From NCBI GenBank assembly GCA_026182355.1, contig JAPFBL010000605.1, positions 62,001 to 126,000 on the forward strand: a DNA stretch of 64,000 nt, given 5' to 3'. The notes under the pieces are model-generated. The model made no database searches and had not been told where the DNA came from. It saw only the letters and a program-made list of their open reading frames with translations. Source of the stretch: Hermatobates lingyangjiaoensis (taxonomy: Eukaryota; Arthropoda; Insecta; Hemiptera; Hermatobatidae). Made by a program: the position numbers and the translations under genes. Below are positions 3,713 to 56,984 of this stretch, one piece after another. Position 1 is the stretch's first letter. Every line of letters starts with the position of its first letter.

Positions 3713-3836
3713 TATATATATTATTGAATTTGATAGCAGATTCTGCATTCACGATTTTCCTACTTATAGCTTCTATTTTCCTTACAATTCTCTTTTGAGA
3801 AGGTGATAATTGCCAAAGCAAACTAGCATACGACAT
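3713..3836 (-). pseudogene. PLE ORF N-terminal fragment
   Basis: The minus frame starts at ATG 3836 and reads MSYASLLWQ..., then a lysine-rich KIEAISRKIVNAES helix, then KFNN, and stops abruptly at a (TA)n tract. Penelope-like reverse transcriptases share this kind of N-terminus: basic helices, then FN-x(2)-C-L-x-E-G-L-L-P-x-Y-T-N. Only about 40 codons are present, so it cannot make an enzyme. A hammerhead motif lies about 75 bp upstream in the same orientation. Confidence 0.6.
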
Positions 3837-3911
3837 TCAGAAGGCTGAAACACTAAATAAACACTTCACTGGGGATAACTATTTTTAATTAAACACTACA
3901 CTAGATTAAAC

Positions 3912-3957
3912 TAAGATAACAAGCTTTCGGCCCCATGGGTCATCATCAGGTTCTTAA
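3912..3957 (-). ncRNA. Hammerhead-like motif, AGCT class
   Basis: On the minus strand: CUGAUGA, one extra U, a GC-rich stem II (GACCC...GGGGCC), GAAA, self-complementary AGCU, then U as the predicted cleavage nucleotide. The core is intact. It stands directly upstream of the PLE N-terminal fragment, the expected place for a pseudo-LTR ribozyme. Confidence 0.6.
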
Positions 3958-3960
3958 ACT

Positions 3961-3999
3961 ACATGCTTGAAAGAGGACTTGCTGCCAAAATACACTAAT
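3961..3999 (+). pseudogene. PLE N-terminal fragment, CLKEDLLPKYTN block
   Basis: Thirteen codons read TCLKEDLLPKYTN on the plus strand and run into TA-rich DNA. This is the conserved end of the PLE N-terminal segment, joined head-to-head to the minus-strand copy at 3713-3957. Confidence 0.6.
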
Positions 4000-4023
4000 A
4001 TACATACATACATATATATATAT

Positions 4024-4225
4024 ATATAAATCAAAACTTGAAATGGTCCAACAGGACTACTAGTTCACACAGGAAAGCTAACTGCAGTTGGCTTCAGCTA
4101 CTCAAAGGGACTACTTCTGCCCGATGACGACGACTGTCGAAATATCGTTGTGAGTCTTTTGTGTGTGTCTTTATTTGTTTTTTCTCTTTCCTGTGTGAAC
4201 TATATATATATATATATATATATAT
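4024..4225 (+). mobile_element. ATAT-class hammerhead module
   Basis: The plus motif at about 4112-4160 has CCGATGA (U4 changed to C), stem II GAC/GUC, GAAA, AUAU, C and GUUGUGAG. Its tail ends ctttcctgtgtgaac next to (TA)n. A short inverted copy of that tail precedes it. It is closely related to 47890-48170. Confidence 0.65.
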
Positions 4226-4619
4226 AGAATACTGTCCGTTAAAGTGTTATTTTTAGTCCACTTCAGTTTTACCAATGATAAGAGGTGTCAGCGTTTACAG
4301 AATTTGCTTACCTCAGCGACACGTTCAATCCGATAGTCCTCCTTACTAGGAACAAGATAACACTCTGCCCATCATCTGATTTATAACTCTTCTCTTTTCC
4401 ACTTCATTTCAATTTTTTTTTTATTTTGTGTACTTATAATTAATAACTGCTTCTATTCGTAAAATATTATTTCATAAAAGGTCGTGTAAAGTGGATGACT
4501 TGATATTAGCTGACTGGAAATAGAATACACTTCAATCACCAATAGATATTTATTAAATGGAAGTCGTCGCCATCTGTGTCCATAATGTAAAGCTGTTTTG
4601 ACGTTACCTTAAATCAGTG

Positions 4620-4905
4620 AAGATGAGTTGCGAGAAGATGAAAGCCAACTATATATATAGTTGGCTTTTGTTGGTTTTTTTGGTTGGGTTGGGTTTTTGA
4701 CTCTGATGAAGATGGCTTGTTACGGTTGAAAGATCTTAGTCTTTTTACCTTATTTCATATTGTGATTTGATCATTGTTATACATATCTATCAATAATCAA
4801 ACCACAATAAGAAAATGGGAAAACAAGGCTAAGATCTTTCAACCGTAACAAGCGGCCTTCGTCAGAGTCAAAAACCCAACTGTTATATGGTATACATATC
4901 TATAT
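4620..4905. mobile_element. Tail-to-tail AGATCT hammerhead modules
   Basis: A plus motif at 4699-4741 (CTGATGA) and a minus motif at 4827-4868 (CTGACGA) face each other through their 3' tails (tcatattgtgatttgatcat and its complement). Both keep GAAA, AGATCT and the flanking stem I bases. An 8-bp inverted repeat around tatatata lies upstream. Confidence 0.7.
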
Positions 4906-5035
4906 ATACGAGTTCAACATTCAAGAAGAGTAACACACAGAGAAAGGAAACACATTTACAGACTCAAAGTCTGTAAGTGTGTTTTCTTACTCTGGGTGTT
5001 ACTCTTCTTGAATTTTGAACTCGTATGGAGTCCAG
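4906..5035. repeat. Palindrome of AATTT-class module tails
   Basis: Two inverted copies of the tail (acgagttcaacattcaagaa, gagtaacacacagag, cttacagactcaaa) meet at about 4968. The ribozyme core is absent from both, so this is a head-to-head pair truncated just 3' of the cleavage site. Confidence 0.65.
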
Positions 5036-5059
5036 TTTGGATCGTCTTTCGTTTTATTA

Positions 5060-5280
5060 AATGATATATATATACTTCGAATAAAATGAAAGGTCCATGT
5101 GGACAATAAACACTTTAATACAGAGAAAAGAACACAGAAAGACACTACAGAACTCACTTCGATATTTCGACATGACGACGGATGTCGAAATATCGAAGTG
5201 AGTTCTGTAGTGTCTTTCTGTGTTCTTTTCTCTGTATTAAAGTGTATGCATATATATATATATATATGAATTAAAGACCA
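5060..5280. repeat. Palindrome of ATAT-class modules
   Basis: Arms of roughly 90 bp (cactttaatacagagaaaag ... ctcacttcgatatttcgaca) are inverted around about 5172. Both arms retain GTCGAAATATCGAAGTGAG but the CUGAUGA half is lost at the centre. A TA tract follows on the right. Confidence 0.65.
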
Positions 5281-5406
5281 CAATAAACAAATATATATTA
5301 GATACATTGTGGTTTTATATTGTGATTTATTGTGGTTTTATATTGTGATTTATTGTGGTTGTTTAATTCATATTTTATATCAAGAGTTATTGTTTATTAT
5401 TAATTG

Positions 5407-5409
<3 letters not shown>

Positions 5410-5467
<58 letters not shown>
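5410..5467. repeat. (TA)n microsatellite
   Basis: An uninterrupted TA run of about 58 bp directly abuts the last PLE codons of the minus-strand module at 5468-5695. It is among the longest of about two dozen TA tracts in the window. Confidence 0.9.
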
Positions 5468-5469
<2 letters not shown>

Positions 5470-5630
5470 GTATATTTGGGGAACAGTCCTTCATTTATAC
5501 ATGTGAGATTAAATTTTCTGCCCACTTTTGTCTTAATTAGTTTTCTGGATTTCTTTTCCAAATCTCGAAGTCTTACTTTCATTTCTTTGGGAACTAGGTG
5601 TAATAACTCACCATATGTTTTGTTGTCCAT
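5468..5630 (-). pseudogene. PLE N-terminal fragment (KTYGEL type)
   Basis: The frame from ATG 5630 reads MDNKTYGELLHLVPKE, then a basic helix (LRDLEKKSRKLIKTKVG), then KFNLTCINEGLFPKYTN, and runs into (TA)n. This is one of the best-preserved copies of the conserved PLE N-terminal block. It sits downstream of a PLE C-terminal fragment (5794-6081) and a hammerhead-like motif on the same strand, giving a PLE 3' end in the expected order. Confidence 0.7.
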
Positions 5631-5639
5631 TTTTTTATT

Positions 5640-5695
5640 TTTACCGACGTTCGGTCTTCTTCGACCATCTACTGGGTGATTTTAGAACACATACT
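5640..5695 (-). ncRNA. Degenerate hammerhead motif between PLE C- and N-terminal pieces
   Basis: The minus strand reads CAGTAGATGGTC...GACCGAACGTCGG. Stem II (GGUC/GACC) and the ACGU stem III survive, but the core is CAGUAGA and GAAA has become GAA. It is probably inactive. The related copies at 46983-47026 and 47238-47280 keep CUGAAGA. Confidence 0.5.
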
Positions 5696-5793
5696 ATTTT
5701 AAACTATTTAACATTTTTAACAAAAACTAAATTTTAACGCTCGACTAACAAAATATAAATGTAAACAATTAAACTGGCAGGTTGCAATTCCTG

Positions 5794-6081
5794 TTATACA
5801 CAGACAGGTGTGTCTTCAGTTTCTTCATTCCTTGTTGAATTTCCTATATGTAGAGGTTGGAATTGTCCCATGTGCAACTTCAATATGTTTGCAAAACTTG
5901 CAGTTTGATTATTGATACTTGGTCTCTTTTCCAAAATATTCAGGGCCTCTACAATACCTAATCTGCTGTGATCGCGTTCTTGATATAGTATTTCGGTATT
6001 GTTTGTAAGCATTTCCCTGGTCAGCTTCACTTTATGTAACCTTTCTGTGTGGTCCTTAGGTCCTCCTGCAGCTAGGTGCAT
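5794..6081 (-). pseudogene. PLE C-terminal fragment (end of GIY-YIG endonuclease region)
   Basis: The 95-codon minus frame contains ERDHSRLGIVEALNILEKRP followed by SINNQTASFANILKL, and ends ...DTPVCV-stop. PLE proteins are a reverse transcriptase followed by a GIY-YIG endonuclease, and their C-terminal tails carry a similar (R)L-x-I-x-EAL-x-I-x(2)-(K)P-x-IN-x-Q block. The reverse transcriptase and endonuclease core are absent, so it is a 5'-truncated 3' end. Downstream in the same orientation come a hammerhead relic, an ORF N-terminus and (TA)n. A short inverted copy of its own sequence (ataccgaaatactatatcaa) follows at about 6115. Confidence 0.65.
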
Positions 6082-6164
6082 CGTGAGGCGTCTGGAAAAA
6101 GTTGTGGTTATATTAATACCGAAATACTATATCAAGAACGCGATATGACACACACAGACGTCAT

Positions 6165-6285
6165 CGAAAAAACTTCATAAAAAGACTAATGGGACCTCAA
6201 AATATAATTCCATCAAAATCTTGAGATCAAATTTTTTCATATTTGAGATCAAGTACCACTATATTTTACTTTAAGCAAAGTAAAA
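6165..6285. repeat. End fragment of the TTACTTTACTATAAG element family
   Basis: This matches the right inverted terminus of the 54494-58026 element: acgtcatcgaaaaaact, gggacctcaaaa, aattccatcaaaatctt and a terminal ttttactttaagcaaagtaaa. It is diverged. Confidence 0.55.
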
Positions 6286-6499
6286 ATATAATTTCATATT
6301 ACACATAAATATTACTTAAAAGTAATTACTTTTCTTTTTTATGAGGGAAGCTGGAGATTACTTCTCCATATCGGTGAGTGTTTACATATTTTTCTGCTTT
6401 ACTATGAGTTCTTTGAGCTAAATTTATTATTAGATTATTTTATAATGAAATGTATGTTGCCGTTTATAGGTAATTTCTAGAAATGGGAAAGGAATAATA

Positions 6500-6682
6500 T
6501 TTAGAGATTTGGATAAGGAGTTCTTCTCCCACTGCTTCGATAGGCAAGTCGCGCGGTTGGCACAGTACCGCGTGCGCGATCCCTTGGACTCCACTCGGGG
6601 ACTCGGCTGTCCGTCCCGTCCGCCTCTCGCCTTGCCCCAGGGAGGGGGAGATCGTTTGCCGACCGGTCAGTCAGTTATAAGC
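6500..6682 (+). promoter_or_regulatory. CpG-rich 5' region of the putative exchanger gene
   Basis: About 6540-6665 is markedly richer in G+C and CpG than its surroundings (gcgcggttggcacagtaccg and what follows), as expected for a promoter or 5' UTR in an otherwise 30% GC region. No TATA box stands out. An upstream in-frame ATG at 6509 exists, but starting there would bury the signal peptide. Confidence 0.4.
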
Positions 6683-6794
6683 ATGAGGAGGCGGCTCGTG
6701 TGGCAGGCCGCTTGCCTTATTATAGTCTTCGCTAATCTTTCCTTTGTTCAACCTCATATAAAACAACACAGGACACTTATTCTCAAGACAACAG
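6683..6794 (+). CDS. Putative first coding exon (signal peptide) of Na/K/Ca-exchanger-like gene
   Basis: From ATG 6683 the frame reads MRRRLVWQAACLIIVFANLS then FVQPHIKQHRTLILKTT. This is a charged start, a hydrophobic core and a polar follow-on, typical of a signal peptide. A plausible donor (AACAG|GTACAA) follows 6794 and leaves phase 1. The exchanger exon at 48318 starts in the matching phase, and the join creates a Gly codon (LKTT-G-DGDNCT). K-dependent Na/Ca exchangers (SLC24/NCKX, including insect zydeco) have an N-terminal hydrophobic segment, then an extracellular loop, then a transmembrane bundle. Linking two exons 41 kb apart is inference. The exon could belong to another gene. Confidence 0.5.
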
Positions 6795-7294
6795 GTACAA
6801 AAAACACCAATTACTGTATATTTATAAACAATCAATCTTACTTCTCAGTATTATTCCCCTTAACAGATTCTCAGAAACAATTATCCTTTCATACATGCTT
6901 ATAAATTTCCACTTCATTTCAATTCCAACCAACTAGGAATACCACATCTCAATTTTATCAAAACTTTTGCCAGATATCGCTTCCCGATGGTAGAATTCTA
7001 GAATTTTGCATGGGTTCATAAAAAAAAAACAGAATGATCTTCAAGCTAAAAAAAAAAAAAAATTTTTCCTTTCAAAAGAAATTTATTGAAAATATCAAAA
7101 TTAATTCGTATTGTAATATCAAATTCAATATCAACTGGTGAATTGCATCCTCTAATAATTGCTCATAAATATGAGTTTTTATAAAGACCTTTCAGTTAAT
7201 TATATCTGGAAAATCTTCAACTAATAATTCCAACTTGTCACTTGCTAATACATTTTACGGGAGTTCTCTGATAAAAGCTAACTGATATATATAC

Positions 7295-7505
7295 CAATGA
7301 TCAAACCACAATAAGAAATGGGAAAACAAGACTAAGATCCTTTCAACCTAAACAAGCGGTTTTCGTCAGAGTCAAAAACCCAACTGACGAAGTTTTTTGA
7401 CTTTGACTCTGACGAAGACCGCTTGTTACGGTTGAAAGATCTTAGTCTTGTTTTCCCATTTCTTATTGTGGTTTGATCATTGATTGTTATTTCACGTGTT
7501 TATGT
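7295..7505. mobile_element. Palindromic AGATCT hammerhead pair
   Basis: A minus motif (7330-7373) and a plus motif (7405-7447) lie head-to-head with about 100-bp arms. The plus copy is intact: GACT, CTGACGA, A, GACCG/CGGTT stem II, GAAA, AGATCT, T and AGTC. The minus copy has one inserted C (gatcctttc). Tails end at (TA)n near 7518. Confidence 0.75.
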
Positions 7506-7544
7506 GAAATTGTTTTATATATATATATATATATATATATCTTT

Positions 7545-7692
7545 CGCGCTCCGTTCTTCGACGTGGAGAGATCTCTCTCACTTCGTCCTCTCTTCTAGTC
7601 TACTCCTGATGACGAACAACAGTTCAAAATATTGAATTCTGTAAGTGTTCTCTTTATTCTTTTTTCTGCTTCGTGCTTTGTGTAATTTGAAG

Positions 7693-7695
<3 letters not shown>
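7545..7695 (+). mobile_element. ATATT-class hammerhead module
   Basis: The plus motif at 7602-7645 has CTGATGA, C, GAAC/GTTC stem II, then AAAA in place of GAAA (G12 lost) and ATATTG. It is flanked by (TA)n on both sides. The intact relative is at 15352-15505. Confidence 0.65.
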
Positions 7696-7732
<37 letters not shown>

Positions 7733-7734
7733 CC

Positions 7735-8235
7735 ACAGTGTCTGTAAACCACACTGAAAATACAGAAATATGAGTAAGAAGTTTTGACCAAGTAACTTCT
7801 TCTTCTCAAAGTTTGAGAGTAGCTGAAACTAACTTATATAAATATATATGTCTCTAAACCACAGTGAAAATACAGAAATATGAGTAAGAAGTTCCGCAAT
7901 GAATAACAAACTTCGATGACAATGAATTATTCGTGTCGTTTATTTTATAGTTTGTAATGTATTTTTATATTGATATAGCTTCTCGGCCACTGATTTTTCA
8001 ATTTCACTTAAAGAGTTCTTGAGGCTTATGGTCATAAAAATTCAACTCCTGATTATATGCCAACGTTTTTGTTTTCTATTGGTTGGTATTCCGTGGATGT
8101 ATTTGTCTTGCTTTACTTATATTGTTAATAAATTCGTTTTTAGACTTGAAAATTCCAAATAACTTTTGGTAAAACGTTGGCATATAATCAGGAGTTGAAT
8201 TTTTATGGCCAAAATCCTCAAGAACTCCTTCTGTG
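7735..8235. repeat. Short duplication and inverted repeat
   Basis: Two diverged direct copies (accacactgaaaatacagaa, gagtaagaagtt) lie at about 7735-7790 and 7857-7900. An inverted repeat follows, with arms at about 8008-8070 and 8172-8230 (aactcctgattatatgccaa and its complement) and a 100-bp spacer. The inner edge carries TTTTGGTAAAACGTTGGCA, a possible eroded ACGTT hammerhead. Confidence 0.5.
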
Positions 8236-8589
8236 AACTTCTATTTTTATATATGTGTATAATTTGCCTATATAATTTTTTTCACTTTTGATTTTGTATT
8301 ACAAGAGCGATAAAAATAAACAGAAATAATGGTATTTCAAAACGGATAGTTACGTAATACTAATGATAAAAGCTTTCATCCAAACAATACATAAGTAAAC
8401 AACAAACAAATTTTCACTAAAGACGCACAAATATATTTTTTACTCAAATTACAAACATTTAATGTACATTAATAGAAACTCCTTGGTAAATCATTTTAAT
8501 ACATCTTAATATACGCTATTCAAATATGCTGTCACTTCTTAATTAGTGAGATTTAATCGTTTTTAATATGAAGCATTTCTCGGGTTTTT

Positions 8590-9167
8590 AGTAGTAGTAG
8601 TAGCAACCTTTAGATTGCAGTGACTGTTCCACAAGTGAACGCACACGTATAGACCGAACATTGGGCCCTTTGTGACAACACACTGTCAAGATTGATTCGA
8701 CATTGGGATTCCTAAATTTTGCCTAACTCAAAAGTATTTAGAGGAGGGTTCTTTAACAAGTACGTGACATCGTACAGGCTCGGGACCGACCCTGGTCGTG
8801 GAAGTTCCCCTCCTTGAGGTCCACCTCGGGCGTATCTCGAATGCTTGGTTTGCCTCTATCTTTAGAGGCAAAAAACTCTTAAAACTCTCTCTTTAGCTAG
8901 TACTCGTTGTCCCCGAGATGCGGTTAAAGAGCTTTGACGTATAAAAGGCATCAGTCTGTTCTTTTATTATCCGCGATATAGCTAAACAAGCACGTCACGC
9001 GAAATAATAATACCAAAACAGTCTTAACGTCCTCTCCGAGGGACGAAATGCTCAGATTTATTCACCTCTCACGTAAATATAATCGAGGGCTAGGTGGTTA
9101 TCGAACCCCAAACCTTCCAGTTCAGAGGAGATTACAATAACCACTGAGCTAACCTGGCCTCCTTCCT
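8590..9167 (-). mobile_element. tRNA-derived SINE, long variant
   Basis: Read on the minus strand from 9167, it begins with a tRNA-like head containing an A box (TTAGCTCAGTGG) and a B-box-like GGTTCGATAACC. The conserved SINE body follows. Relative to the copy at 27262-27595 it carries about 250 extra bases (roughly 8780-9028) in the body, either a nested insertion or a longer subfamily. No TTAGG tail remains; a GTAGTAGTAGTAG run lies at the 3' side. Confidence 0.65.
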
Positions 9168-9311: not shown

Positions 9312-11997
9312 AAATTAACTTGGTTCCTCTTTTGATTTATTCATGTTCCTAAGACTCTCGGTTCATTACATGATACAACAGAATAGGTTGATGAATTAAC
9401 TAGGTACCTGTTTTGTTTGATTCATGTTTCTAAGCCTCTCGGCTTCTTATATGATAAAGTAGAATAACTTGATGAATTAGCTAGGTATCTGTTTTGTTTG
9501 ATTCATGTTCCTAAGTCTCTCGGCTCTTTACAAGATAAAACAGAATAGGTTGATGAATTAGCTAGGTATCTGTTTTGTTTGATTCATGTTCCTAAGCCTC
9601 TCGGATCTTTACAAGATAAAACAGAATAGGTTGATGAATTAGCTAGGTATCTGTTTTGTTTGATTCATGTTCCTAAGCCTCTCAGCTTATTACATGATAA
9701 AACAGAATAGGTTGATGAATTAGCTAGGTATCTGTTTTGTTTGATTCATATTCCTAAGCCTCTCCGCTCTTTACAAGATAAAGCAGAATATTTTGATGAA
9801 TTAGCTAGGTATCTGTTTTGTTTGATTCATGTTCCTAAGCCTCTCGGCTCTTTACAAGATAAAACAGAATAGGTTGATGAATTAGCTAGGTATCTGTTTT
9901 GTTTGATTCATATTCCTAAGCATCTCCGCTCTTTACAAGATAAAGCAGAATAGGTTGATGAATTAGCTAGGTATCTGTTTTGTTTGATTCATGTTCCTAA
10001 GCCTCTCGGCTTATTACATGATAAAACAGAATAGTTTGATGAATTAGCTAGGTATCTGTTTTGTTTGATTCATGTTCCTATGCCTCTCGGCTGTTTACAT
10101 GATAAAACAGAATATGTTGATGAATTAGCTAGGTATCTGTTTTGTTTGATTCATGTTCCTAAGCCTCTCGGCTCTTTACAAGATAAAACAGAATAGGTTG
10201 ATGAATTAGCTAGGTATCTGTTTTGTTTGATTCATATTCCTAAGCATCTCCGCTCTTTACAAGATAAAGCAGAATAGGTTGATGAATTAGCTAGGTATCT
10301 GTTTTGTTTGATTCATGTTCCTAAGCCTCTCGGCTTATTACATGATAAAACAGAATAGTTTGATGAATTAGCTAGGTATCTGTTTTGTTTGATTCATGTT
10401 CCTATGCCTCTCGGCTGTTTACAAGATAAAACAGAATAGGTTGATGAATTAGCTAGGTATCTGTTTTGTTTGATTCATATTCCTAAGCATCTCCGCTCTT
10501 TACAAGATAAAGCAGAATAGGTTGATGAATTAGCTAGGTATCTGTTTTGTTTGATTCATGTTCCTAAGCCTCTCGGCTTATTACATGATAAAACAGAATA
10601 TGTTGATGAATTAGCTAGGTATCTGTTTTGTTTGATTCATGTTCCTAAGCCTCTCGGCTTATTACATGATAAAACAGAATAGTTTGATGAATTAGCTAGG
10701 TATCTGTTTTGTTTGATTCATGTTCCTATGCCTCTCGGCTGTTTACAAGATAAAACAGAATAGGTTGATGAATTAGCTAGGTATCTGTTTTGTTTGATTC
10801 ATATTCCTAAGCATCTCCGCTCTTTACAAGATAAAGCAGAATAGGTTGATGAATTAGCTAGGTATCTGTTTTGTTTGATTCATGTTCCTAAGCCTCTCGG
10901 CTTATTACATGATAAAACAGAATATGTTGATGAATTAGCTAGGTATCTGTTTTGTTTGATTCATGTTCCTAAGCCTCTCGGCTCTTTACAAGATAAAACA
11001 GAATAGGTTGATGAATTAGCTAGGTATCTGTTTTGTTTGATTCATATTCCTAAGCATCTCCGCTCTTTACAAGATAAAGCAGAATAGGTTGATGAATTAG
11101 CTAGGTATCTGTTTTGTTTGATTCATGTTCCTAAGCCTCTCGGCTTATTACATGATAAAACAGAATAGTTTGATGAATTAGCTAGGTATCTGTTTTGTTT
11201 GATTCATGTTCCTATGCCTCTCGGCTGTTTACAAGATAAAACAGAATAGGTTGATGAATTAGCTAGGTATCTGTTTTGTTTGATTCATATTCCTAAGCAT
11301 CTCCGCTCTTTACAAGATAAGCAGAATAGGTTGATGAATTAGCTAGGTATCTGTTTTGTTTGATTCATGTTCCTAAGCCTCTCGGCTTATTACATGATAA
11401 AACAGAATAGTTTGATGAATTAGCTAGGTATCTGTTTTGTTTGATTCATGTTCCTATGCCTCTCGGCTCTTTACAAGATAAAGCCGAATAGTTTGATGAA
11501 TTAGCTAGGTATCTGTTTTGTTTGATTCATGTTCCTAAGCCTCTCGGCTTATTACATGATAAAACAGAATAGTTTGATGAATTAGCTAGGTATCTGTTTT
11601 GTTTGATTCATGTTCCTATGCCTCTCGGCTGTTTACAAGATAAAACAGAATAGGTTGATGAATTAGCTAGGTATCTGTTTTGTTTGATTCATGTTCCTAA
11701 GCCTCTCGGCTCTTTACAAGATAAAACAGAATAGTTTGATGAATTAGCTAGGTATCTGTTTTGTTTGATTCATGTTCCTATGCCTCTCGGCTGTTTACAA
11801 GATAAAGCCGAATAGTTTGATGAATTAGCTAGGTATCTGTTTTGTTTGATTCATGTTCCTATGCCTCTCGGCTGTTTACAAGATAAAACAGAATAGGTTG
11901 ATGAATTAGCTAGGTATCTGTTTTGTTTGATTCATGTTCCTAAGCCTCTCGGCTCTTTACATGATAAAACAGAATAGGTTGATGAATTAGCTAGGTA
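9312..11997. repeat. 81-bp satellite array, about 33 units
   Basis: The unit is 81 bp (ttgatgaattagctaggtat ... gataaaacagaatagg) and very regular: the start motif recurs at 9388, 9469, 9550 and so on. Variants differ at fixed sites: attcctaagcatctccgc (C), cttattacatgat (A), cctatgcctctcggctgttt (B) and ctctttacaagat (D). They recur in the order C-A-B, giving a 243-bp higher-order period in the middle. One unit near 11251 has a 1-bp deletion. No coding role is apparent. Confidence 0.9.
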
Positions 11998-11999
11998 CC

Positions 12000-13330
12000 G
12001 GGTTAGTTTTTGTGAATCTCCCACCATCCACTTATCATCTTCATTCGTAAACCAAAGTTTTATATCATGGTGTTATTTAAAACTCTAGAACAAGAGTCAA
12101 ACAACAACCCTATTGTAAATCTAACTAGTAATTAACATCAAAGCTATATGAATTTTGTTCACCAATCCAAAACGTATTTCAATGTATGAAAAAACCCCTG
12201 TCTATAAAATGTTAATTTGTTCAACTACAACCTAACAATATTCAATCATGTTCTGATGAGTACAAAATAAACCTGCTATAGATTTTACTAAATAAATATG
12301 AAAAAAAAATAGTCAGGGATTTTTTATATTCCATAAGGTGAAACCACACCATGATTTGAAATGGATATTAATTTGATCCCTACATCATTGGACTTACAAC
12401 AAATGAAGACATAAATTACCTACGATCCAAAGTTCTTTTTTCAAGACTTAATTTGGGAGACAATTTATTTTCACAAAAGTTGTAGAAAACATGTTAAGTA
12501 ACATGAAAAATCAGTTGTTAGAGCTGAAAAAATTAGTGACCTATTTTTGTTTATAAATAATACGAATCATATTTGTATACATATCAGTTATGTGATAAGA
12601 TATATCGACGTTGTTATCATTAAAGTCTACATTAATAAAATTAATGATTAATAATTAATTAAATAATTATTAATTATAATAAATAATCTCATAATGATTA
12701 ATTAATAATTTTAAACTCTACAATTATTTATAGTTTTTCTAAATAATATTATTTTGAAGGTATTTTAATTTGAATATTTTGTTTCGTAATCCTTTTTTTT
12801 TTTTGAAATTAAGAAATTATTCCCAATTTTACATCAGTTGAGGCTGAATTTAAAAAAAAAAATTTAATTTCTCTTGCTTAGGTTATGAAAAGAATGCATT
12901 GTTGAAATTTCACGTTTTGATTTAAAGCAGTTTTAAAACTTTTTATAACACTACCTCTCCTATTGTTATCCGTAGAACGGATCATATTGTAATAAATGAC
13001 CTATAAGGCACCCTATGAAAACCATGAAAACATAGGACTTTCTTATGGCAGGCTAAAAGAGGATTTCACAAGGTTTCCTGACATTCCGACATGTTAAAGC
13101 ACAATAATTAAACAGTAATAGGTCTCCGTCTGCAACTGATAATTGGAACATACGACACAATGTGCGTAAATAGAAGCACACAATTGGCTGGTATTAGAAG
13201 CTCTTCAACTGGTGAGGGTATCTTTATTAACAATCCGTATCAATATATTTATTGCCATTGGATATAGCAGTGAAATTCTGATTCATTTCTGTGTGTCCTT
13301 TTTGTGAATATATTTCGAATGTATATATAT
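12000..13330. other. AT-rich stretch, nothing recognised
   Basis: No gene or clear repeat is seen. The interval 12640-12760 is a low-complexity run of aataattaatta words. Confidence 0.5.
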
Positions 13331-13334
13331 TTAA

Positions 13335-13632
13335 TGATCAAAACACAATAAGAAATGGGAAAACAAGACTAAGATCTTTCAACCATAACAAGCGGTCTTC
13401 GTCAGAGTAAAAAAACCCAACTGAAAACAAGACTAAGATCTTTCAACCGTAACAAGCGGTCTTCGTCAGAGTCAAAAACCCAACTGAAAAAAAGACCAAG
13501 ATCTTTCAACCGTAACAAGCGGTCTTCAGAGTCAAAACCCAAAACGGTTTTCATCGTGAGTTGGGTTTTGACTCTGAAGACCGCTTGTTACGGTTCTTAG
13601 TCTTTTTTTACCATTTCATATTGTGGTTTGAT
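13335..13632. mobile_element. Tandem triple AGATCT hammerhead module plus inverted partner
   Basis: Three minus-strand motifs repeat at a 63-64 bp spacing (13367-13408, 13430-13473, 13494-13533). A damaged plus copy follows (13570-13602, GAAAGAT lost). The third minus copy has a 3-bp core deletion that leaves CUGAAGA. The repeat unit spans the stretch from the ribozyme to just short of the tail. Confidence 0.7.
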
Positions 13633-13649
13633 TATATATATATGAAAGT

Positions 13650-13800
13650 ATAAACCACAAGGAAAAAGTAAAAAAGACACAAAAAATTTACTCTAAGGCC
13701 TTTCAAATATGTCATCAGAGAGCAACTCTAAGTTGAAAGGCCTTACAGCACATTTTCTGTGTCTTTTTTACTTTTTCCTTGTAGCTTATACTTTCATTAG
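13650..13800. mobile_element. AGGCCT hammerhead palindrome
   Basis: The minus motif at 13691-13735 has CTCT, CTGATGA, C, a very weak stem II, GAAA, AGGCCT, T and AGAG. Stem I is four perfect pairs. The plus partner keeps only TTGAAAGGCCTTA onwards. The arms share tails ending tttttactttttccttgt. Confidence 0.65.
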
Positions 13801-13999: not shown

Positions 14000-14038
<39 letters not shown>

Positions 14039-14039
14039 G

Positions 14040-14233
14040 ATTTCACATAAACACGTGAAACAACAATCAATGATCAAACCACAACAAGAAATGGGAAAAC
14101 AAGATTAAGATCTTTCAACCGTAACAAGCGGTCTTCGTCAGAGTCAGAGTTGGGTTTTTGGCTCTGACGAAGACCGCTTGTTACGGTTGAAAGATCTTAG
14201 TCTTGTTTTCCCATTTCTTGTTGTGGTTTGATC

Positions 14234-14235
<2 letters not shown>
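14040..14235. mobile_element. Palindromic AGATCT hammerhead pair
   Basis: Minus 14103-14145 and plus 14160-14202 lie head-to-head with a 14-bp gap, and both cores are intact (CTGACGA, GAAA, AGATCT). In each, the outer stem I pair has changed (GATT and GGCT in place of GACT). Arms are about 90 bp and the palindrome is bounded by (TA)n on both sides. Confidence 0.75.

Positions 14236-14271
<36 letters not shown>

Positions 14272-17981: not shown

Positions 17982-17990
<9 letters not shown>
17822..17990 (+). pseudogene. PLE N-terminal fragment ending at (TA)n
   Basis: It reads SLGQLIFLFPE-stop-LRRAYRTLEKLSKKVTKHEI, then LETYLQEGLLPTFTN, then (TA)n. It is head-to-head with 17318-17700. The junction after Thr-Asn is the same as in most modules here. 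Confidence 0.7.
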
Positions 17991-18019
<29 letters not shown>

Positions 18020-18679
18020 AAAAGACGAGCCAATCCCTGTTACGTATTACTTTGGGCACTTCTTATTGGTTGTGGGTGTTTATTCGTTGAACACGTTTCT
18101 CCTTAGCACACTCCGTCTGCTCGGCCGCCTCAGCCTTCACTCCGGGAGAGGGCTCGCAGTCCCTACTTAATTTTCCAATAGAGTTGGATGAAGGTCTTGG
18201 CGTCCTGGCTTGGAAGTGTACCTCGTCGAACTCGGTGTTTTTTACTATGGGCTTAGTGGATTTCATTAGATACTGGTTGTTGGTGTATTCTGTAAATTCT
18301 ATTGATGTGGGTGTATGTAGACCTTTTCCCCGTCGGTTTCTTAACACGCTTGGCTGCATCCGCCGTCCTTCCTGGAGAGGGCTCGCAGTCCCTACTTTAA
18401 ATTCAGAGAAAATAAGAGACCATCGTATTAATATTTTCTCTTATTTAAAATATTAAATAAGAGAAAATTAAGTAGGGACTGCGAGCCCTCTCCCGGAGTG
18501 AAGGCTGAGGCGGCCGAGCAGACGGAGTGTGCTAAGGAGAAACGTGTTCAACGAATAAACACCCACAACCAATAAGAAGTGCCCAAAGTAATACGTAACA
18601 GGGATTGGCTCGTCTTTTACAATATCTAATCTGGCATTCAACATATAATAACGCACAATCCAGCCAGGAACTACACCCA

Positions 18680-18725
18680 CCAGCTTGAGAATGACCGAGG
18701 AACGGTCGAAACCGGTCGCAACGAC
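18680..18725 (+). ncRNA. Hammerhead-like motif in 658-bp unit, copy 1
   Basis: UUGAGAA at 18685-18691, extra U, stem II GACCG-AGGAA-CGGUC (five pairs), GAAA, palindromic ACCGGU (18711-18716) and C17 at 18717, so predicted cleavage is 18717/18718. Relative to CUGANGA, C3 is U and G8 is A. These two positions normally pair, so U3-A8 would keep a pair. Stem I is weak (GC/GC). Confidence 0.55.
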
Positions 18726-19337
18726 ACAGGAAGGCGCCACGCATTCTTCAAGAAAACACTGCAGTAAAGGGGTCTAATGACAAAACGCCACACACACTCA
18801 ACTTCAACTTCAAATCATAATGCCCATAGCCCGGACCAGATTCTTACGAGGAACTCTTCTGCGTGAGGACGCCTATGCCATTCCTGCCCTCTGTGAAATT
18901 AAAGTAGGGACTGCGAGCCCTCTCCAGGAAGGACGGCGGATGCAGCCAAGCGTGTTAAGAAACCGACGGGGAAAAGGTCTACATACACCCACATCAATAG
19001 AATTTACAGAATACACCAACAACCAGTATCTAATGAAATCCACTAAGCCCATAGTAAACACCGAGTTCGACGAGGTACACTTCCAAGCCAGGACGCCAAG
19101 ACCTTCATCCAACTCTATTGGAAAATTAAGTAGGGACTGCGAGCCCTCTCCCGGAGTGAAGGCTGAGGCGGCCGAGCAGACGGAGTGTGCTAAGGAGAAA
19201 CGTGTTCAACGAATAAACACCCACAACCAATAAGAAGTGCCCAAAGTAATACGTAACAGGGATTGGCTCGTCTTTTACAATATCTAATCTGGCATTCAAC
19301 ATATAATAACGCACAATCCAGCCAGGAACTACACCCA

Positions 19338-19383
19338 CCAGCTTGAGAATGACCGAGGAACGGTCGAAACCGGTCGCAACGAC
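19338..19383 (+). ncRNA. Hammerhead-like motif in 658-bp unit, copy 2
   Basis: Same motif exactly 658 bp downstream: UUGAGAA at 19343-19349, stem II 19351-19365, GAAA 19366-19369, predicted cleavage 19375/19376. Confidence 0.55.
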
Positions 19384-19435
19384 ACGAGGAAGGCGCCACG
19401 CATTCTTCAAGAAAACACTGCAGTAAAGGGGTCTA

Positions 19436-19891
19436 ATGACAAACGCCACACACACTCAACTTCAACTTCAAATCATAATGCCCATAGCCCGGACCAGATT
19501 CTTACGAGGAACTCTTCTGCGTGAGGACGCCTATGCCATTCCTGCCCTCTGTGAAATTAAAGTAGGGACTGCGAGCCCTCTCCAGGAAGGACGGCGGATG
19601 CAGCCAAGCGTGTTAAGAAACCGACGGGGAAAAGGTCTACATACACCCACATCAATAGAATTTACAGAATACACCAACAACCAGTATCTAATGAAATCCA
19701 CTAAGCCCATAGTAAACACCGAGTTCGACGAGGTACACTTCCAAGCCAGGACGCCAAGACCTTCATCCAACTCTATTGGAAAATTAAGTAGGGACTGCGA
19801 GCCCTCTCCCGGAGTGAAGGCTGAGGCGGCCGAGCAGACGGAGTGTGCTAAGGAGAAACGTGTTCAACGAATAAACACCCACAACCAATAA
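19436..19891 (+). CDS. 151-codon open frame of the 658-bp unit, function unknown
   Basis: It starts about 60 bp after the predicted ribozyme cleavage site and ends INTHNQ-stop. The product is basic and rich in Pro, Ser, Thr and Arg (for example RTRFLRGTLLREDAY, KSTKPIVNTEFDEV). I recognise no domain, and it lacks the PLE N-terminal Cys/LLP block. It recurs at 20094-20549 and, N-terminally shorter (137 codons), at 18820-19233. The opposite strand is also open over about 109 codons with hydrophobic stretches, so openness may partly reflect base composition. Coding status is uncertain. Confidence 0.3.
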   Translation: MTNATHTQLQLQIIMPIARTRFLRGTLLREDAYAIPALCEIKVGTASPLQEGRRMQPSVLRNRRGKGLHTPTSIEFTEYTNNQYLMKSTKPIVNTEFDEVHFQARTPRPSSNSIGKLSRDCEPSPGVKAEAAEQTECAKEKRVQRINTHNQ

Positions 19892-19995
19892 GAAGTGCCC
19901 AAAGTAATACGTAACAGGGATTGGCTCGTCTTTTACAATATCTAATCTGGCATTCAACATATAATAACGCACAATCCAGCCAGGAACTACACCCA

Positions 19996-20041
19996 CCAGC
20001 TTGAGAATGACCAAGGAACGGTCGAAACCGGTCGCAACGAC
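19996..20041 (+). ncRNA. Hammerhead-like motif in 658-bp unit, copy 3
   Basis: Same motif at 20001 with one change in stem II (gaccaagg for gaccgagg), which leaves four pairs and a larger loop. Core, GAAA and ACCGGU are unchanged. Predicted cleavage is 20033/20034. Confidence 0.55.
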
Positions 20042-20719
20042 ACGAGGAAGGCGCCACGCATTCTTCAAGAAAACACTGCAGTAAAGGGGTCTAATGACAA
20101 ACGCCACACACACTCAACTTCAACTTCAAATCATAATGCCCATAGCCCGGACCAGATTCTTACGAGGAACTCTTCTGCGTGAGGACGCCTATGCCATTCC
20201 TGCCCTCTGTGAAATTAAAGTAGGGACTGCGAGCCCTCTCCAGGAAGGACGGCGGATGCAGCCAAGCGTGTTAAGAAACCGACGGGGAAAAGGTCTACAT
20301 ACACCCACATCAATAGAATTTACAGAATACACCAACAACCAGTATCTAATGAAATCCACTAAGCCCATAGTAAACACCGAGTTCGACGAGGTACACTTCC
20401 AAGCCAGGACGCCAAGACCTTCATCCAACTCTATTGGAAAATTAAGTAGGGACTGCGAGCCCTCTCCCGGAGTGAAGGCTGAGGCGGCCGAGCAGACGGA
20501 GTGTGCTAAGGAGAAACGTGTTCAACGAATAAACACCCACAACCAATAAGAAGTGCCCAAAGTAATACGTAACAGGGATTGGCTCGTCTTTTACAATATC
20601 TAATCTGGCATTCAACATATATATATATATGTATATAATAAACAATTAAGTAAAATGATATATATATATATATACACATATTCATATATTTATATATAAA
20701 CAATTAAATAAAATGATTT

Positions 20720-24830: not shown

Positions 24831-25600
24831 AATATAATACAATGAAAATATTTATTCATATAATTACAATGTTTTGCTGTTGTTCATAAAATTTGAGAAA
24901 AGATAATTTTTAAACTGTCGATGTTTAAAATGAAAAAAAAAAATTGAAAATTCTGCTCCTTGTGAAAAAGATTGCTAATTAACAAATAAACCACACCAAC
25001 TATACATAGACAATAATAAACTTCATGCTTTTTAAGTATTTATATGCTTTATTTATATATTTAAAAGAACATAAGAGTGTTTTTACGAATATTAAATTGA
25101 ACAGTTAACAGTAATAATGGAGGGAATAGATTTTCAAAAGTATTACTATCAGAATGCTATCTTCTACTAAAGGTTTTCACTTTTCCTTAGTTAATTAACA
25201 GTTTTTTTTTTTAAATTTTCCTTCCAGTCTTTTGATGAATGAGCAATTCTTTAAAATTCAAATGTCACATTGAGTAACAATTCATTCCTCAATATTGATT
25301 AGTTTGTCAGGGTTTGTAACAGTTTTAAGTATCGGTGTAGCAATAACGGGAAAAAATGCCCAACTATAATTACTTCATTTGAAATATGGATATATTTAAA
25401 GGAAAAATTAATTACTTAATCAAAGTAATTTTTCTTTTTCCAATTGAATTAAGTATTGGTATTGACAATTTATTGAAGTTAGCTGAGTATAACACATATT
25501 ATTATTGTTAATTCCAGATATGTTGTTAGTAACATCTAAAGGAGAATGAAGCATCTTGTCACTTTGTTTTCTGAGAATCTCTATCAAATTTTCATTATTA
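24750..25600. other. No gene seen
   Basis: AT-rich sequence with a TA tract near 24799-24826. Confidence 0.5.
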
Positions 25601-25607
25601 TTATGTC

Positions 25608-26352
25608 ATTTAGAATTCCTGTCGTACCAACAATAATATTAGTGTTATTTACAATTCCTGTCGTACTAACAATAATATTAGTCTTATTTACAATTCATGT
25701 CGTACTAACAATAATATTAGTGTTATTTACAATTCCTGTCGTACTAACAATAATATTAGTGTTATTTACAATTCATGTCGTACTAACAATAATATTAGTG
25801 TTATTTACAATTCCTGTCGTACTAACAATAATATTAGTGTTATTTACAATTCCTGTCGTAGTAACAATAATATAAGTGTTATTTAGAATTCCTGTCGTAC
25901 CAACAATAATATTAGTGTCATTTACAATTCCTTTCGTACTAACGATAATATTAGTGTTATTTACAATTCCTTTCGTACTAACAATAATAGTAGTAGTGTT
26001 ATTTACAATTCATGTCGTACTAACAATAATATTAGTGTTATTTACAATTCCTGTCGTACTAATAATAATATTAGTGTTATTTACAATTCCTGTCGTAGTA
26101 ACAATAATATTAGTGTTATTTACAATTCCTGTCGTAGTAACAATAATATTAGTGTTATTTACAATTCCTATCGTACTAACAATAATATTAGTGTTATTTA
26201 CAATTCCTGTCGTAGTAACAATAATATTAGTGTTATTTACAATTCCTATCGTACTAACAATAATATTAGTGTTATTTACAATTCCTGTCGTACTAACAAT
26301 AATATTAGTGTTATTTACAATTCCTGTCGTACTAACAATAATATTAATGTTA
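25608..26352. repeat. 39-bp minisatellite, about 19 units
   Basis: Unit ttagtgttatttacaattcc plus tgtcgtactaacaataata. Because 39 is a multiple of 3, the plus strand stays open and reads a 13-residue hydrophobic repeat (FTIPVVLTIILVL). One TAA interrupts it at about 25873. Substitutions are not biased to third positions, so I treat it as non-coding. Confidence 0.9.
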
Positions 26353-26504
26353 TTTTAATTGAATTTGAGGTTTATTATTAACGTTATTTTACGTAAAAGA
26401 GGCTTGTATTTTATAGAATTAAAGTCACGGGATGATTATTTGTTCTGACTCTTACCATCGATTCTAATGTGCTTTTCTTAATGTTGATGCCAAGGAAATT
26501 TTGA

Positions 26505-33134: not shown

Positions 33135-33197
<63 letters not shown>
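33132..33197. repeat. (TA)n microsatellite
   Basis: TA run of about 62 bp with one TT interruption, between the AATTA module and an AGATCT module. Confidence 0.9.
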
Positions 33198-33198
<1 letters not shown>

Positions 33199-33370
33199 AT
33201 GATCAAACCACAATAAGAAATGGGAAAACAAGACTAAGACCCAACAATCAGTTGGGTTTTTGACTCTGACGAAGACCGCTTGTTACGGTTGAAAGATCTT
33301 AGTCTTGTTTTCCCATTTCTTATTGTGGTTTGATCATTGATTGTTATTTTACGTGTTTATGTGAAATCTT
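33198..33370 (+). mobile_element. AGATCT hammerhead module with truncated inverted partner
   Basis: Plus motif 33262-33304 is intact (GACT, CTGACGA, GACCG/CGGTT, GAAA, AGATCT, AGTC). The inverted partner retains only the tail up to gactaaga. A TA tract follows at 33374. From 33440 to 33970 nothing else is recognised. Confidence 0.75.
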
Positions 33371-33971
33371 TTTATATATATATATATATATATATATTTA
33401 TTAATTTATATATTAATATATTTATATATTAATCTTTAATAATTTTCCTGTGCACTGTGACTCAATGTTTAGTAGCTAAAAACAAATAGATAACATAGTG
33501 GGACTGTGATTATCAAATAGATAATCTGATATCAATCAGTTTAAATGTCATAATAAGTCATTAATGCTTTGAAGAAAACAGACTATAATACAAAGGTTGT
33601 TTCTAGTAGAAAAAAAAATAAAATAAATAAAAAAGAAAGAATAGGAGGAAAATGCCGGTCTGTTTATTTTCTGACATGACACCAGTCAAACGTATTGCTC
33701 AAACCAATTACAATAATGGAATTTTAATAGTGGAAAAGTGATTTATTATTGAATTTCCTCATTTCTAAAGCAGGTCTAAGAGGCTGGCGTGAGGTGATTC
33801 CCCTGCGGCTCCCAAAGCTCTGACCTTCAGCTTTGTGTCTGTCAGCCTTTTGTTTACCTTCTATTCTATGATGATCATGTCTTGCTCATCTATAGGATAT
33901 TTTATTTTGCCATATATATATTCGACATTTATTATTCCAATATTAACAATTAACATAATATCTCTGTTATA

Positions 33972-36194: not shown

Positions 36195-36400
36195 TTGGGT
36201 TCCCGGGAAAGTTACTGAACCAAAAAGGGTTCCACGTTGAAAAAAAAATTTGATAAACTCTGAAGTACTATAATAAGATGTAAGTCTGGGACCAATGAAA
36301 GCAGTCTAAAATTAGATCCCCTGAATGTAATTCCATGAAAGTAAATATTTCCAGGACGTTCTGGAGTTTTGAATTTTAATGGATTATCAACACTAGTGGT
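36195..36400 (-). mobile_element. hAT-like element, central part
   Basis: Minus-strand match to 27870-28050 and 22138-22200 (attaaaattcaaaactccag, tttcatggaattacattcag). It continues into the G-rich array at 36400 and the terminal CAGTGGCGTATC at about 37005, so the array sits inside this element. Confidence 0.5.
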
Positions 36401-37012
36401 GAGGGAGGGCAAATCCTGAGGGGGGGGGCATTATATGGGAGGGGGCAAACCATGAGGGGGGAATCATGGGGAGGGGGCAAATCATGGGGGGGGGGCAATC
36501 ATGGGAAGCAATTCATGGCGGGGGCAAATCATGGGAGGTAATTCATGGGGGGGGGGCAAATGATGAGGGGGAATCATTGGGGGGTGGGGGGCCAAATCAT
36601 GGGGGTGCCAATCATGGGAAGCAATTCATGGCGAGGGCAAATCATGAGGGGGGAATCATGGGGGGGGGGGCAATCATGGGAAGTAATTCATGGTGGCGGC
36701 AACTCATGAGGGGGGAATCATGGGAGGGGGTGCAAATCATGGGTGGGGGGGCAATCATGGGAAGCAATTCATGGCGGGGGAAAATCATGAGGGGGGAATC
36801 ATGGGGGGGGGGCAATCATGGGAAGCAATTCATGGCGGGGGCAAATCATGGGGGGGGAATCATGGGAAGCAATTCATGGCGGGGGGAAATCATGGGGGGG
36901 GGGCAATCATGAGGGGGGAATCATGGGAGCCAAATCATGGGGGGGGAATCATGGGGGGGGAAATCATGGGTGGCAAATCATGGGGGGGCACTATTTGATA
37001 CGCCACTGGTAA
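36400..37012. repeat. G-rich minisatellite inside a hAT-like element
   Basis: About 600 bp of short units such as aatcatggggggg, gcaaatcatgagg and gcaattcatggcgggg, with dozens of runs of 5-10 G on the plus strand. It can form many G-quadruplexes. The right edge gatacgccactgg is the complement of the hAT-like end CAGTGGCGTATC. The stop-free plus frames (Gly/His/Met/Trp repeats) are a consequence of the repeat. Confidence 0.85.
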
Positions 37013-40803: not shown

Positions 40804-40834
<31 letters not shown>

Positions 40835-40840
<6 letters not shown>

Positions 40841-41028
40841 CAAACCGCAATACGAAATGGGAAAAAAAGACTAAGATGTTTCAACCATAACAAGCGGTCT
40901 TTGTCAGAGTCAAAAACCTGACTCTGAGAAAGACTACTTGTTACAGTTGAATGATCTTAGTCTTTTTTCCCATTTCATATTTTGGTTTGATCATTGATTG
41001 TTATTTCACGTTTTTATTTTTAATCTTG

Positions 41029-41030
<2 letters not shown>
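40835..41030. mobile_element. AGATCT hammerhead pair, partly decayed
   Basis: Minus 40869-40911 (CTGACAA, stem III AACATCT) and plus 40920-40962 (CTGAGAA, GAATGATCTT) are head-to-head with arms of about 75 bp. Both cores carry substitutions. TA tracts bound both sides. Confidence 0.65.
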
Positions 41031-41062
<32 letters not shown>

Positions 41063-43870: not shown

Positions 43871-44029
43871 AATTCGTTTTTATTTATAATGTACATGCTA
43901 TTAAACACTCTAAGGATACAAAACAGTTTTCTTCTTTATGGGAAGGGTGGAGAGGGTATTTAGTACTGGCTTAAGGGATGAAATGTCCTACAATTATTAA
44001 TACTCCTAGTCGTCATATAAATATATCTC

Positions 44030-44245
44030 TAAAAAGATTTCACATAAACACGTGAAATAACAATCAATGATCAAACCACAATATGAAATGGGAAAACAAG
44101 ACTAAGATTTTTCAACCGTAACAAGCGGTCTTCGTCTGAGTCAAAAACCCAACGACTCTGGGTTTTTGACTCTGACGAAGACCGCTTGTTACGGTTGAAA
44201 GATCTTAGTCTTATTTTCCCATTTCTTATTGTGGTTCGATCATTA
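44030..44245. mobile_element. Palindromic AGATCT hammerhead pair
   Basis: Minus 44100-44142 (stem III AAATCT, core CAGACGA) and plus 44168-44210 (intact) head-to-head with about 100-bp arms. The minus side extends to the distal 'gatttcacataaacacgtga' tail. Confidence 0.75.
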
Positions 44246-44389
44246 AATATATCTTCGTGTAGACCAGCATTTGCTGTATTCATACGCCTAGCACATTCAT
44301 ATTTAAGTCAGCTTCAAAAGGGATTATTTCATTCCTAACAGATTGATTACTGATGACTTTACTGTGGATTCAACTCGATGACTGTTTTG

Positions 44390-47486: not shown

Positions 47487-47885
47487 GTATATTTCGGGAG
47501 CAGACCTTCGTTTATTCATGTCTTGTTAAATTGTATGCCTACTTTTAATCTCACAACTTTTCTACTGAATCTCTCGATTTCTCTAATACACTTTCTCCAT
47601 TTTTGTGGTACAAGATAGATTAGTTGACCAAAGTTTTTATTTACATAGCCCGACATGTTTCGGTCCTCACTGACCATTATCAAGGATTATCAATCATTAT
47701 CAATCCTTGATAATGGTCAGTGAGGACCGAAACATGTCGGGCTATGTAAATAAAAACTTTGGTCAACTAATCTATCTTGTACCACAAAAATGGAGAAAGT
47801 GTATTAGAGAAATTGAGAGATTCAGTAGAAAAGTTGTGAGATTAAAAGTAGGCATACAATTTAACAAGACATATATATTATATAT
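47465..47885. mobile_element. Palindromic PLE ends (NFGQL type) with U3-A8 hammerheads
   Basis: The minus copy 47465-47690 and plus copy 47700-47885 are almost exact inverted copies. Each has the hammerhead, then the frame MSGYVNKNFGQLIYLVPQKW, then KCIREIERFSRKVVRLKVG and FNKT, ending at (TA)n. The minus copy runs on to the INEG-LLPKYTN-equivalent region, slightly damaged. The two share ribozyme changes and are one duplication event. Confidence 0.75.
47700..47750 (+). ncRNA. Hammerhead-like motif with U3/A8 core, ACATGT class
   Basis: UUGAUAA 47707-47713, extra U, stem II GGTC...GACC, GAAA 47729-47732, ACATGT 47732-47737, C17 47738. Relative to CUGAUGA, C3 is U and G8 is A, which preserves the 3-8 pair. 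The ORF's ATG (47734-47736) lies in stem III, two bases before the predicted cleavage site. Confidence 0.6.
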
Positions 47886-52892: not shown

Positions 52893-53014
52893 TTTCCACA
52901 TTATGCCCAAAAACTATAAAGATTAGCTACACTCTGGTGGCCGTTTTCAATATAATACCACTTTGATTTATTAATTGGTGTAACCTGTAGTGTATCTACA
53001 AACTAAAGGATAAA

Positions 53015-53345: not shown

Positions 53346-53389
53346 TAAACTATTAGATATTCGTCCATACACGCGTACACACAGCCGTA

Positions 53390-53560: not shown

Positions 53561-53569
53561 CATATATAA

Positions 53570-56970: not shown

Positions 56971-56984
56971 ACGATACTTCATGA

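Follow-up and report, generated by a model that had tools for sequence, protein, structure and literature searches.

How does a tandem repeat with a 658-bp unit, each unit carrying a hammerhead-like motif and a long open frame, come to lie between (TA)n tracts in an insect genome? The question is raised by a stretch of 64,000 nucleotides from the hemipteran Hermatobates lingyangjiaoensis (assembly GCA_026182355.1, contig JAPFBL010000605.1, positions 62,001 to 126,000 of the forward strand; hereafter the window), in which such an array spans 18010-20621. The original prediction, made from the sequence, took it for a retrozyme-like element, perhaps protein-coding or derived from a Penelope-like element (PLE), mobilised at TA tracts by PLE machinery. 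Here we report a computational analysis of the array and of further copies of its unit in the 910-Mb host genome. With a probability of roughly two in three, we regard it as a non-autonomous, retrozyme-like element of 658 nt that is moved by the reverse transcriptase and GIY-YIG endonuclease of PLEs. The anatomy of its insertions is PLE-like and suggests that one single-unit RNA, most simply a circle, was copied by two-sided target-primed reverse transcription.

Anatomy and template of the insertions

The array consists of an inverted partial copy, a 53-nt insert and a plus-strand arm of three full units and a further 180 nt. Its units are 658 bp long, with a GC content of 48.5% against 31.9% for the window, and neighbouring units, 658 bp apart, are 99.6-99.8% identical over long stretches, which bears out the prediction of a tandem array with hammerhead-like motifs at 18685, 19343 and 20001. 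In a blastn self-comparison of the window (matches of at least 80 nt) the array matched only itself. Copies are described below in M coordinates (window position minus 19300), for which one window unit was rotated to begin after ...GGCATTCAAC; the motif then occupies M43-75, with a predicted cut after M75, the open frame M136-591, and the sites of two kinds of outer end, B and A, fall at M638 and M658. In the window, the B-end arm (18010-18409, minus strand) has its outer end at ~18010-18017, where ...TTTTACAA abuts TATATA, and its inner end at M248; the AT-rich insert (18410-18462) marks the meeting point of the arms; and the A-end arm (18463-20616, plus strand) has as its outer end ...GGCATTCAAC abutting ATATAT. 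The target flanks are a (TA)n tract at 17985-18016 and a TA-rich tract at 20617-20698. The array is thus bounded by TA tracts and inverted at its left end, as predicted, and this inverted end is one of two complementary DNA (cDNA) arms, as in most copies read.

Many near-identical copies of the unit are present in the host genome. A DNA search with the unit gave 222 matches (883 candidates, 40 scored); a search with the open frame yielded 2616 candidates, of which 150 were scored as matches, none below 98% identity. We read 58 independent loci: besides the window, the DNA search supplied 39 (L009-L047) and the frame search 18 (L049, L050 and L056-L071). These are the best-matching and hence young copies; the DNA-found set favours multi-unit arms and the frame-found set complete frames. 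Further copies at TA sites elsewhere in the genome, which the prediction called for, were found among them. Successive full units are 658 bp apart in 19 of 31 pairs and 636-657 bp apart in the others. Seemingly diverged subfamilies in L031 and L021 were rejected as assembly noise (random indels), and dense single-base indels at L021 2089-2796, at L031 3944-4890 and in L042 apparently reflect uncorrected assembly within palindromic arrays. The copy at L062 is host to a nested Jockey/I-like long interspersed nuclear element (3779-8751), which has a zinc-knuckle frame, an RVT_1 match and a 10-bp target duplication (gccaggaact). A search of viral contigs with an exact 22-mer found no match.

In most copies a minus arm and a plus arm stand head to head within (TA)n. 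Where typed, their outer ends fall into two classes: A follows ...GGCATTCAAC, and B follows ...CTTTTACAA, 20 nt upstream of A. All 44 loci with both ends typed, of the 58 read, pair one A with one B, with no A+A and no B+B; B lies on the left in 25 and A in 19, and alternating TA is found within 20 nt on both sides in 42. The remaining 14 have an untyped end (L011, L014, L022, L025, L027, L029, L031, L038, L039, L041, L042, L043, L045 and L059); of these, L059 seems one-armed, the B arm of L025 is very short and L022 shows a B-like remnant. Because one end is at A and the other at B, both target strands would have acted as primers for reverse transcription, the two internal start sites being 20 nt apart. 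In the RNA, AUAU-like letters come after each site, so that a TA primer could plausibly anneal there.

Arms are of varied length: 37 of 94 extend over less than one lap of the unit, 37 over one lap and 20 over at least two, the longest over six. These counts, like those of inner ends given below, cover arms with a typed outer end at loci other than L021, L056, L062 and L064, whose middles are noisy or interrupted, and include the partly noisy L027, L029, L031 and L042. A difference in length between A and B arms was considered and rejected, A being the longer in 12 of 27 loci (noisy L021 included). At the junction of the arms, 18 of 27 loci have inserts, 8 have overlaps of 1-6 nt and L021 is unreadable. 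The inserts at L013 2465-2486 and L016 1190-1227 are repeated or palindromic element sequence, a hint of template slippage or snap-back at cDNA ends.

Substitutions within the insertions bear on the nature of the template. Pieces below 97% identity or of at most 60 nt were left out; of the 200 that remain, 180 with at most three indel columns were counted, and substitutions within 8 nt of piece ends or at position 642 were dropped. At least two units cover 160 locus-substitutions, of which 92 occur in every covering unit and count as fixed (position 370 accounts for 41), 66 are private to one unit and 2 are mixed; with at least three covering units the figures are 47, 41 and 2, and without position 370 they are 22, 41 and 2. 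The private changes of this count include some at sites that a single unit covers. Where both arms cover a lineage variant, every unit of the two carries it in 63 of 67 cases (30 at position 370, 33 elsewhere); of 37 occurrences of multi-locus variants at other positions that have at least two covering units, 34 are fixed. Private variants persist in 63 single-locus cases. Since the same variants recur across all units of an insertion, mutations pass a one-unit bottleneck, and since they are shared by all units of both arms, both cDNAs usually derive from the same template. The tandem arms, their homogeneity and the A+B rule would all be explained by a circular monomer, which has a single A site and a single B site, whereas a concatemeric template explains only the tandem arms without extra assumptions.

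The course of events we propose begins with the transcription of tandem genomic units and cleavage of the transcript by the hammerhead after M75, upon which the monomers would be ligated into circles. Insertion, as the anatomy shows, is into (TA)n, where the outer ends abut TA DNA at M658 and M638. With few exceptions, one unit-length (or homogeneous multi-unit) template served both arms, and arms of up to six laps would most simply come from rolling round a circle; the two cDNAs meet head to head at inner ends that vary from copy to copy, and small overlaps or inserts mark the join. More specifically, a dimer of the PLE reverse transcriptase may load the two target strands on adjacent start sites of one RNA circle, the enzymes running round in tandem and giving two inverted tandem arms, which would make this the re-entry route of animal hammerhead circles; on this fuller account we are evenly divided.

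Next in standing comes PLE-type two-sided insertion in which read-through of a homogeneous source array supplies a linear, concatemeric transcript as template, with a vestigial hammerhead and no circle. Several facts would suit it: unprocessed RNA was the dominant in vitro substrate of an Anolis PLE, hammerhead mutants of which inserted as well (PMC11167929); some sub-lap arms of the present element end upstream of the predicted cut (M1-72, 11 of 37); and stem I of its motif is weak. A concatemer should, however, pass single-unit mutations on as mosaics, yet only 2 of the 160 testable locus-variants are mixed and multi-locus variants are nearly always fixed, as the 34 occurrences given above attest. 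It would also offer several A and B sites, so that A+A and B+B insertions are expected, and none was seen among the 44. We consider it unlikely.

The hammerhead-like motif

Three motifs with a stem II of five or four pairs, GAAA and a palindromic ACCGGU had been predicted, and all three were recovered on the plus strand, where TTGAGAATGACCGAGGAACGGTCGAAACCGGTC begins at 18685, 19343 and 20001. In motif 1 (18685-18717) the core UUGAGAA and a stem II of 5 bp are followed by GAAA and then by the palindrome (ACCGGT in DNA), with a predicted cut after 18717; motif 2 (19343-19375), a descriptor match, also has five stem II pairs; motif 3 (20001-20033) has four, one pair being lost by a change of G to A (GACCA replaces GACCG). 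The conserved CUGANGA core is absent: the array motif has no CTGANGA box and reads TTGAGAA (C3 to U, G8 to A), which places it in the class UUGANAA, the U3-A8 compensatory form of C3-G8. Laid by eye against the canonical PLE-type motif at 43302 of the window (AGC CTGATGA T GGTC tacaa GACC GAAA CATGTC GTTG), the array motif (AGC TTGAGAA T GACCG aggaa CGGTC GAAA CCGGTC GCAACG) matches part by part, and the cores differ in these two bases plus the free position 7.

Bases 3 and 8 pair in the active hammerhead core. Descriptor matches of the U3/A8 class number five in the window, from two independent places, namely this array and the palindromic one of 47683/47707, whereas 60 dinucleotide shuffles of the window yielded 2; by class the window holds 15 C3-G8, 5 U3-A8, 2 A3-G8 and 1 U3-G8, and 3000 shuffles of the unit gave no match of any class. 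Genome-wide, one related PLE-type pattern, distinct from the array's own, was counted 1244 times with U3-A8, 13 times with U3-G8 and 16 times with C3-A8 (reversed control 0 each), copies within families not being independent. For that pattern, the counts indicate that the core pair 3-8 is kept by compensatory change. U3-A8 covariation is found in several natural hammerheads and is active in vitro (PMC3088659, in its available part), so that the U3-A8 core can be taken as a tolerated variant, and a PLE hammerhead was partly rescued by another double change at 3 and 8 (PMC11167929).

The predicted stems are a stem II of 5 bp, a palindromic stem III and a stem I of 2 bp. The palindromic nature of stem III means that only a dimer would be cleaved, and in the fold predicted for two motif strands both stem IIs form together with an intermolecular stem III; a hammerhead with the U3-A8 core would probably act in this way, perhaps assisted by protein. 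Rfam lists no hammerhead for the array motif, but we rejected it as a judge here: it likewise lists none for the stretch with the canonical CTGANGA motifs of the window, and its negative therefore carries no weight.

Hammerheads occur elsewhere in the window too. A palindromic module of ~190 bp at 47600-47790 contains two that face each other head to head and share the U3-A8 core (TTGATAATGGTCAGTGAGGACCGAAACATGTC), and this motif recurs genome-wide. At 13359-13542 the units of a 63-bp tandem repeat carry a CTGACGA hammerhead (13405 and 13469, minus strand).

If linear templates were cut after M75, sub-lap arms should stop just downstream of that point. Inner ends fall in M73-100 in 10 of 37 sub-lap arms and in 2 of 57 longer arms (Fisher p 0.0013), which is suggestive only as a sign of a working ribozyme. 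The weakness of this pile-up is one of several points that weigh against a PLE-mobilised element with an active hammerhead and a circular template. The interval was chosen after the fact, and selection by the frame favours loci with ends below M136; a scan statistic over M1-136 yields p 0.058, falling to 0.026 once symmetric pairs are collapsed, and the peak near the predicted cut is absent from the DNA-found loci. With only 2 bp, stem I is the weak point of the motif, and its second pair has been lost in L026 (G41T) and L025 (C77G), in each case in all covering units, so that these loci would have jumped with the change. The circular fold of the unit is no stabler than that of shuffles (z +1.7), unlike those of published retrozymes. 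Exceptions to the rule of one template are found in L012, L028, L037, L062, L029 and between the arms of L044, and a homogeneous concatemer or later gene conversion could, strictly, also be the source of the uniformity. To these must be added the preference of the Anolis PLE for unprocessed RNA, noted above, and the absence of any sequence link found between the element and a PLE.

The open frame and other explanations

Each unit was predicted to hold a long same-strand frame of 137-151 codons, and each does. The frame of unit 1 (18820-19233, plus strand) has 137 aa, a 1-nt indel upstream shifting the frame before its ATG; those of units 2 (19436-19891) and 3 (20094-20549), also on the plus strand, have 151 aa and begin 60 nt past the predicted cut. 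The longest frame of the unit, at 151-154 aa, codes for no reverse transcriptase or GIY-YIG endonuclease.

That the element might instead be a small protein-coding retroelement, its 151-aa frame being translated (perhaps from the circle) and aiding mobilisation, has been weighed against this frame's properties. An ATG-started frame of at least 151 codons occurs in only 0.55% of 2000 unit shuffles on the plus strand (1.3% on either strand), and the frame starts at the first AUG downstream of the predicted cut. Lineage-fixed changes within it are nonsynonymous and synonymous in a ratio of 10:8, against 60:18 for single-unit changes (3 stops among the nonsynonymous; Fisher p 0.08), and neither of the two indels that are fixed in a locus falls inside it. 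Against coding, the frame has no Pfam match, the AlphaFold model of its product made without an alignment has a mean predicted local distance difference test score of 34 (itself a poor test), its codon-position structure is weak, and the three stop changes are about the number expected by chance. There is also an internal duplication (18846-18951 and 19070-19177, plus strand, 73% identical); its copies lie 224 bp apart, and the second segment is accordingly read in another frame. The suggestion that the element is protein-coding thus meets evidence that is weak and mixed, and we leave the frame undecided, leaning towards non-coding; a coding retroelement seems to us more doubtful still than a concatemeric template.

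Ordinary satellite evolution by unequal exchange and gene conversion, with the motif and TA flanks incidental, would account for tandem, near-identical units, homogenised arrays looking alike, but is scarcely credible for copies that are dispersed over many contigs, that in the loci read take the form of short insertions, mostly with two arms and always with fixed outer ends where typed, and among which private variants persist.

Helper candidates and relation to known systems

A search of the genome for GIY-YIG domains gave 142 matches above the cut-off among 150 scored, of 9198 candidates, with open frames of up to 850 aa, some of which stand as head-to-head pairs. The domain, the length of the frames and their pairing suggest that these are PLEs. 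The frame abutting the copy at L068 has a sub-threshold GIY-YIG match (E 0.015); a Protein Data Bank sequence search with two flanking PLE-like frames found nothing, and Pfam found nothing useful on other frames of the window. No helper PLE for the element was identified. Of the original proposal, then, mobilisation by PLE machinery is favoured by the anatomy of the insertions and the many GIY-YIG frames but has no demonstrated helper; derivation of the element by sequence from a PLE was not borne out, the array having matched only itself in the window; and the description as retrozyme-like stands in so far as the element is mobile, with many TA-flanked copies inserted in PLE fashion, coding and PLE descent being no more than possible.

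In its insertions the element resembles Poseidon of Anolis (PMC11167929) and Penelope of a bdelloid rotifer (available part of PMC3846280), with AT-rich targets, head-to-head inverted copies and a tail on one end. The Anolis PLE likewise has a minimal hammerhead; its protein cuts both strands of AT-rich DNA and extends both, starting internally at two neighbouring sites between which the tail lies (PMC11167929), and these two start sites and the use of both strands would have their counterparts here, to judge from the anatomy. In the rotifer the tail is optionally present on one of the two inverted pLTRs (PMC3846280, same part). In the present element the tail, as the A-B distance, is 20 nt and occurs once per insertion in all typed loci. 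A strict rule of one end of each kind is not stated for PLEs in PMC11167929 or in the available part of PMC3846280, older Drosophila work aside. Unlike PLEs, the element lacks a reverse transcriptase and an endonuclease and consists of a short unit of which repeated copies are made.

Another family in the window, of short hammerhead modules, has one long and one short end in 6 of 6 copies as judged by eye (7285-7540, 14009-14244, ~33195-33390, ~40830-41050, 44015-44253 and 53553-53804); further copies at ~1317-1437, 4680-4882, 13316-13650 and 53010-53466 stand outside this comparison. The modules have a CTGACGA core, are mostly palindromic and lie at TA-rich sites; they are probably another non-autonomous PLE-type family. 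The window also contains minisatellite arrays at 9330-11997, 25599-26355, 56978-57590 and 36400-36990 (81-bp x 33, 39-bp x 19, 43-bp x 14 and a G-rich array).

Metazoan non-LTR retrozymes (LTR, long terminal repeat), as presented in the available parts of PMC7229834 (Cervera and de la Pena 2020) and of the review PMC7761336, are likewise short, hammerhead-bearing tandem units that are dispersed, mobile and non-autonomous, with a GC content below 50%; they have a type I hammerhead and a circular RNA intermediate, and mobilisation by PLEs has been proposed for them. The present element differs from them, as described there, in its unit of 658 bp (theirs measure ~150-450 bp), in a hammerhead that is minimal and PLE-like, with a palindromic stem III and a U3-A8 core in place of the canonical type I form, in its head-to-head two-armed (TA)n insertions with paired A and B ends, in its 151-codon frame and in being no more self-paired than shuffles. 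Plant LTR retrozymes (accessible portions of PMC7761336, PMC6155905 and PMC7229834) share the hammerhead and a similar size (600-1000 nt), and would share a circular RNA cycle; they differ in having LTRs of ~350 bp, a primer binding site and polypurine tract, 4-bp duplications and type III hammerheads. The W-elements of Schistosoma are satellite-like repeats too, some with functional hammerheads, and are suspected to be mobile; the part of PMC8490949 available mentions no two-armed (TA)n insertion. Among the titles and abstracts listed on PLEs, retrozymes, hammerheads and rolling-circle reverse transcription, none was recognised as describing the element or the one-A-one-B rule with single-template variants, most subscription papers lying outside this coverage. 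The element thus appears to work like a metazoan retrozyme and to be inserted like a PLE, departs from each in features that were tested, and is filed here as a PLE-mobilised, retrozyme-like element.

According to the available text of a review (PMC7761336), animal retrozymes show no motif that reveals their helper, and what minimal hammerheads do in PLEs is a mystery. The anatomy described here ties a hammerhead element to PLE-type integration, and the variants within its insertions allow a single-unit and probably circular template to be tested from genomic sequence. The genome in addition shows a compensatory change of the hammerhead core in many copies. Finally, the rule of paired A and B ends constrains how such elements insert and is open to checking wherever a genome holds young copies.

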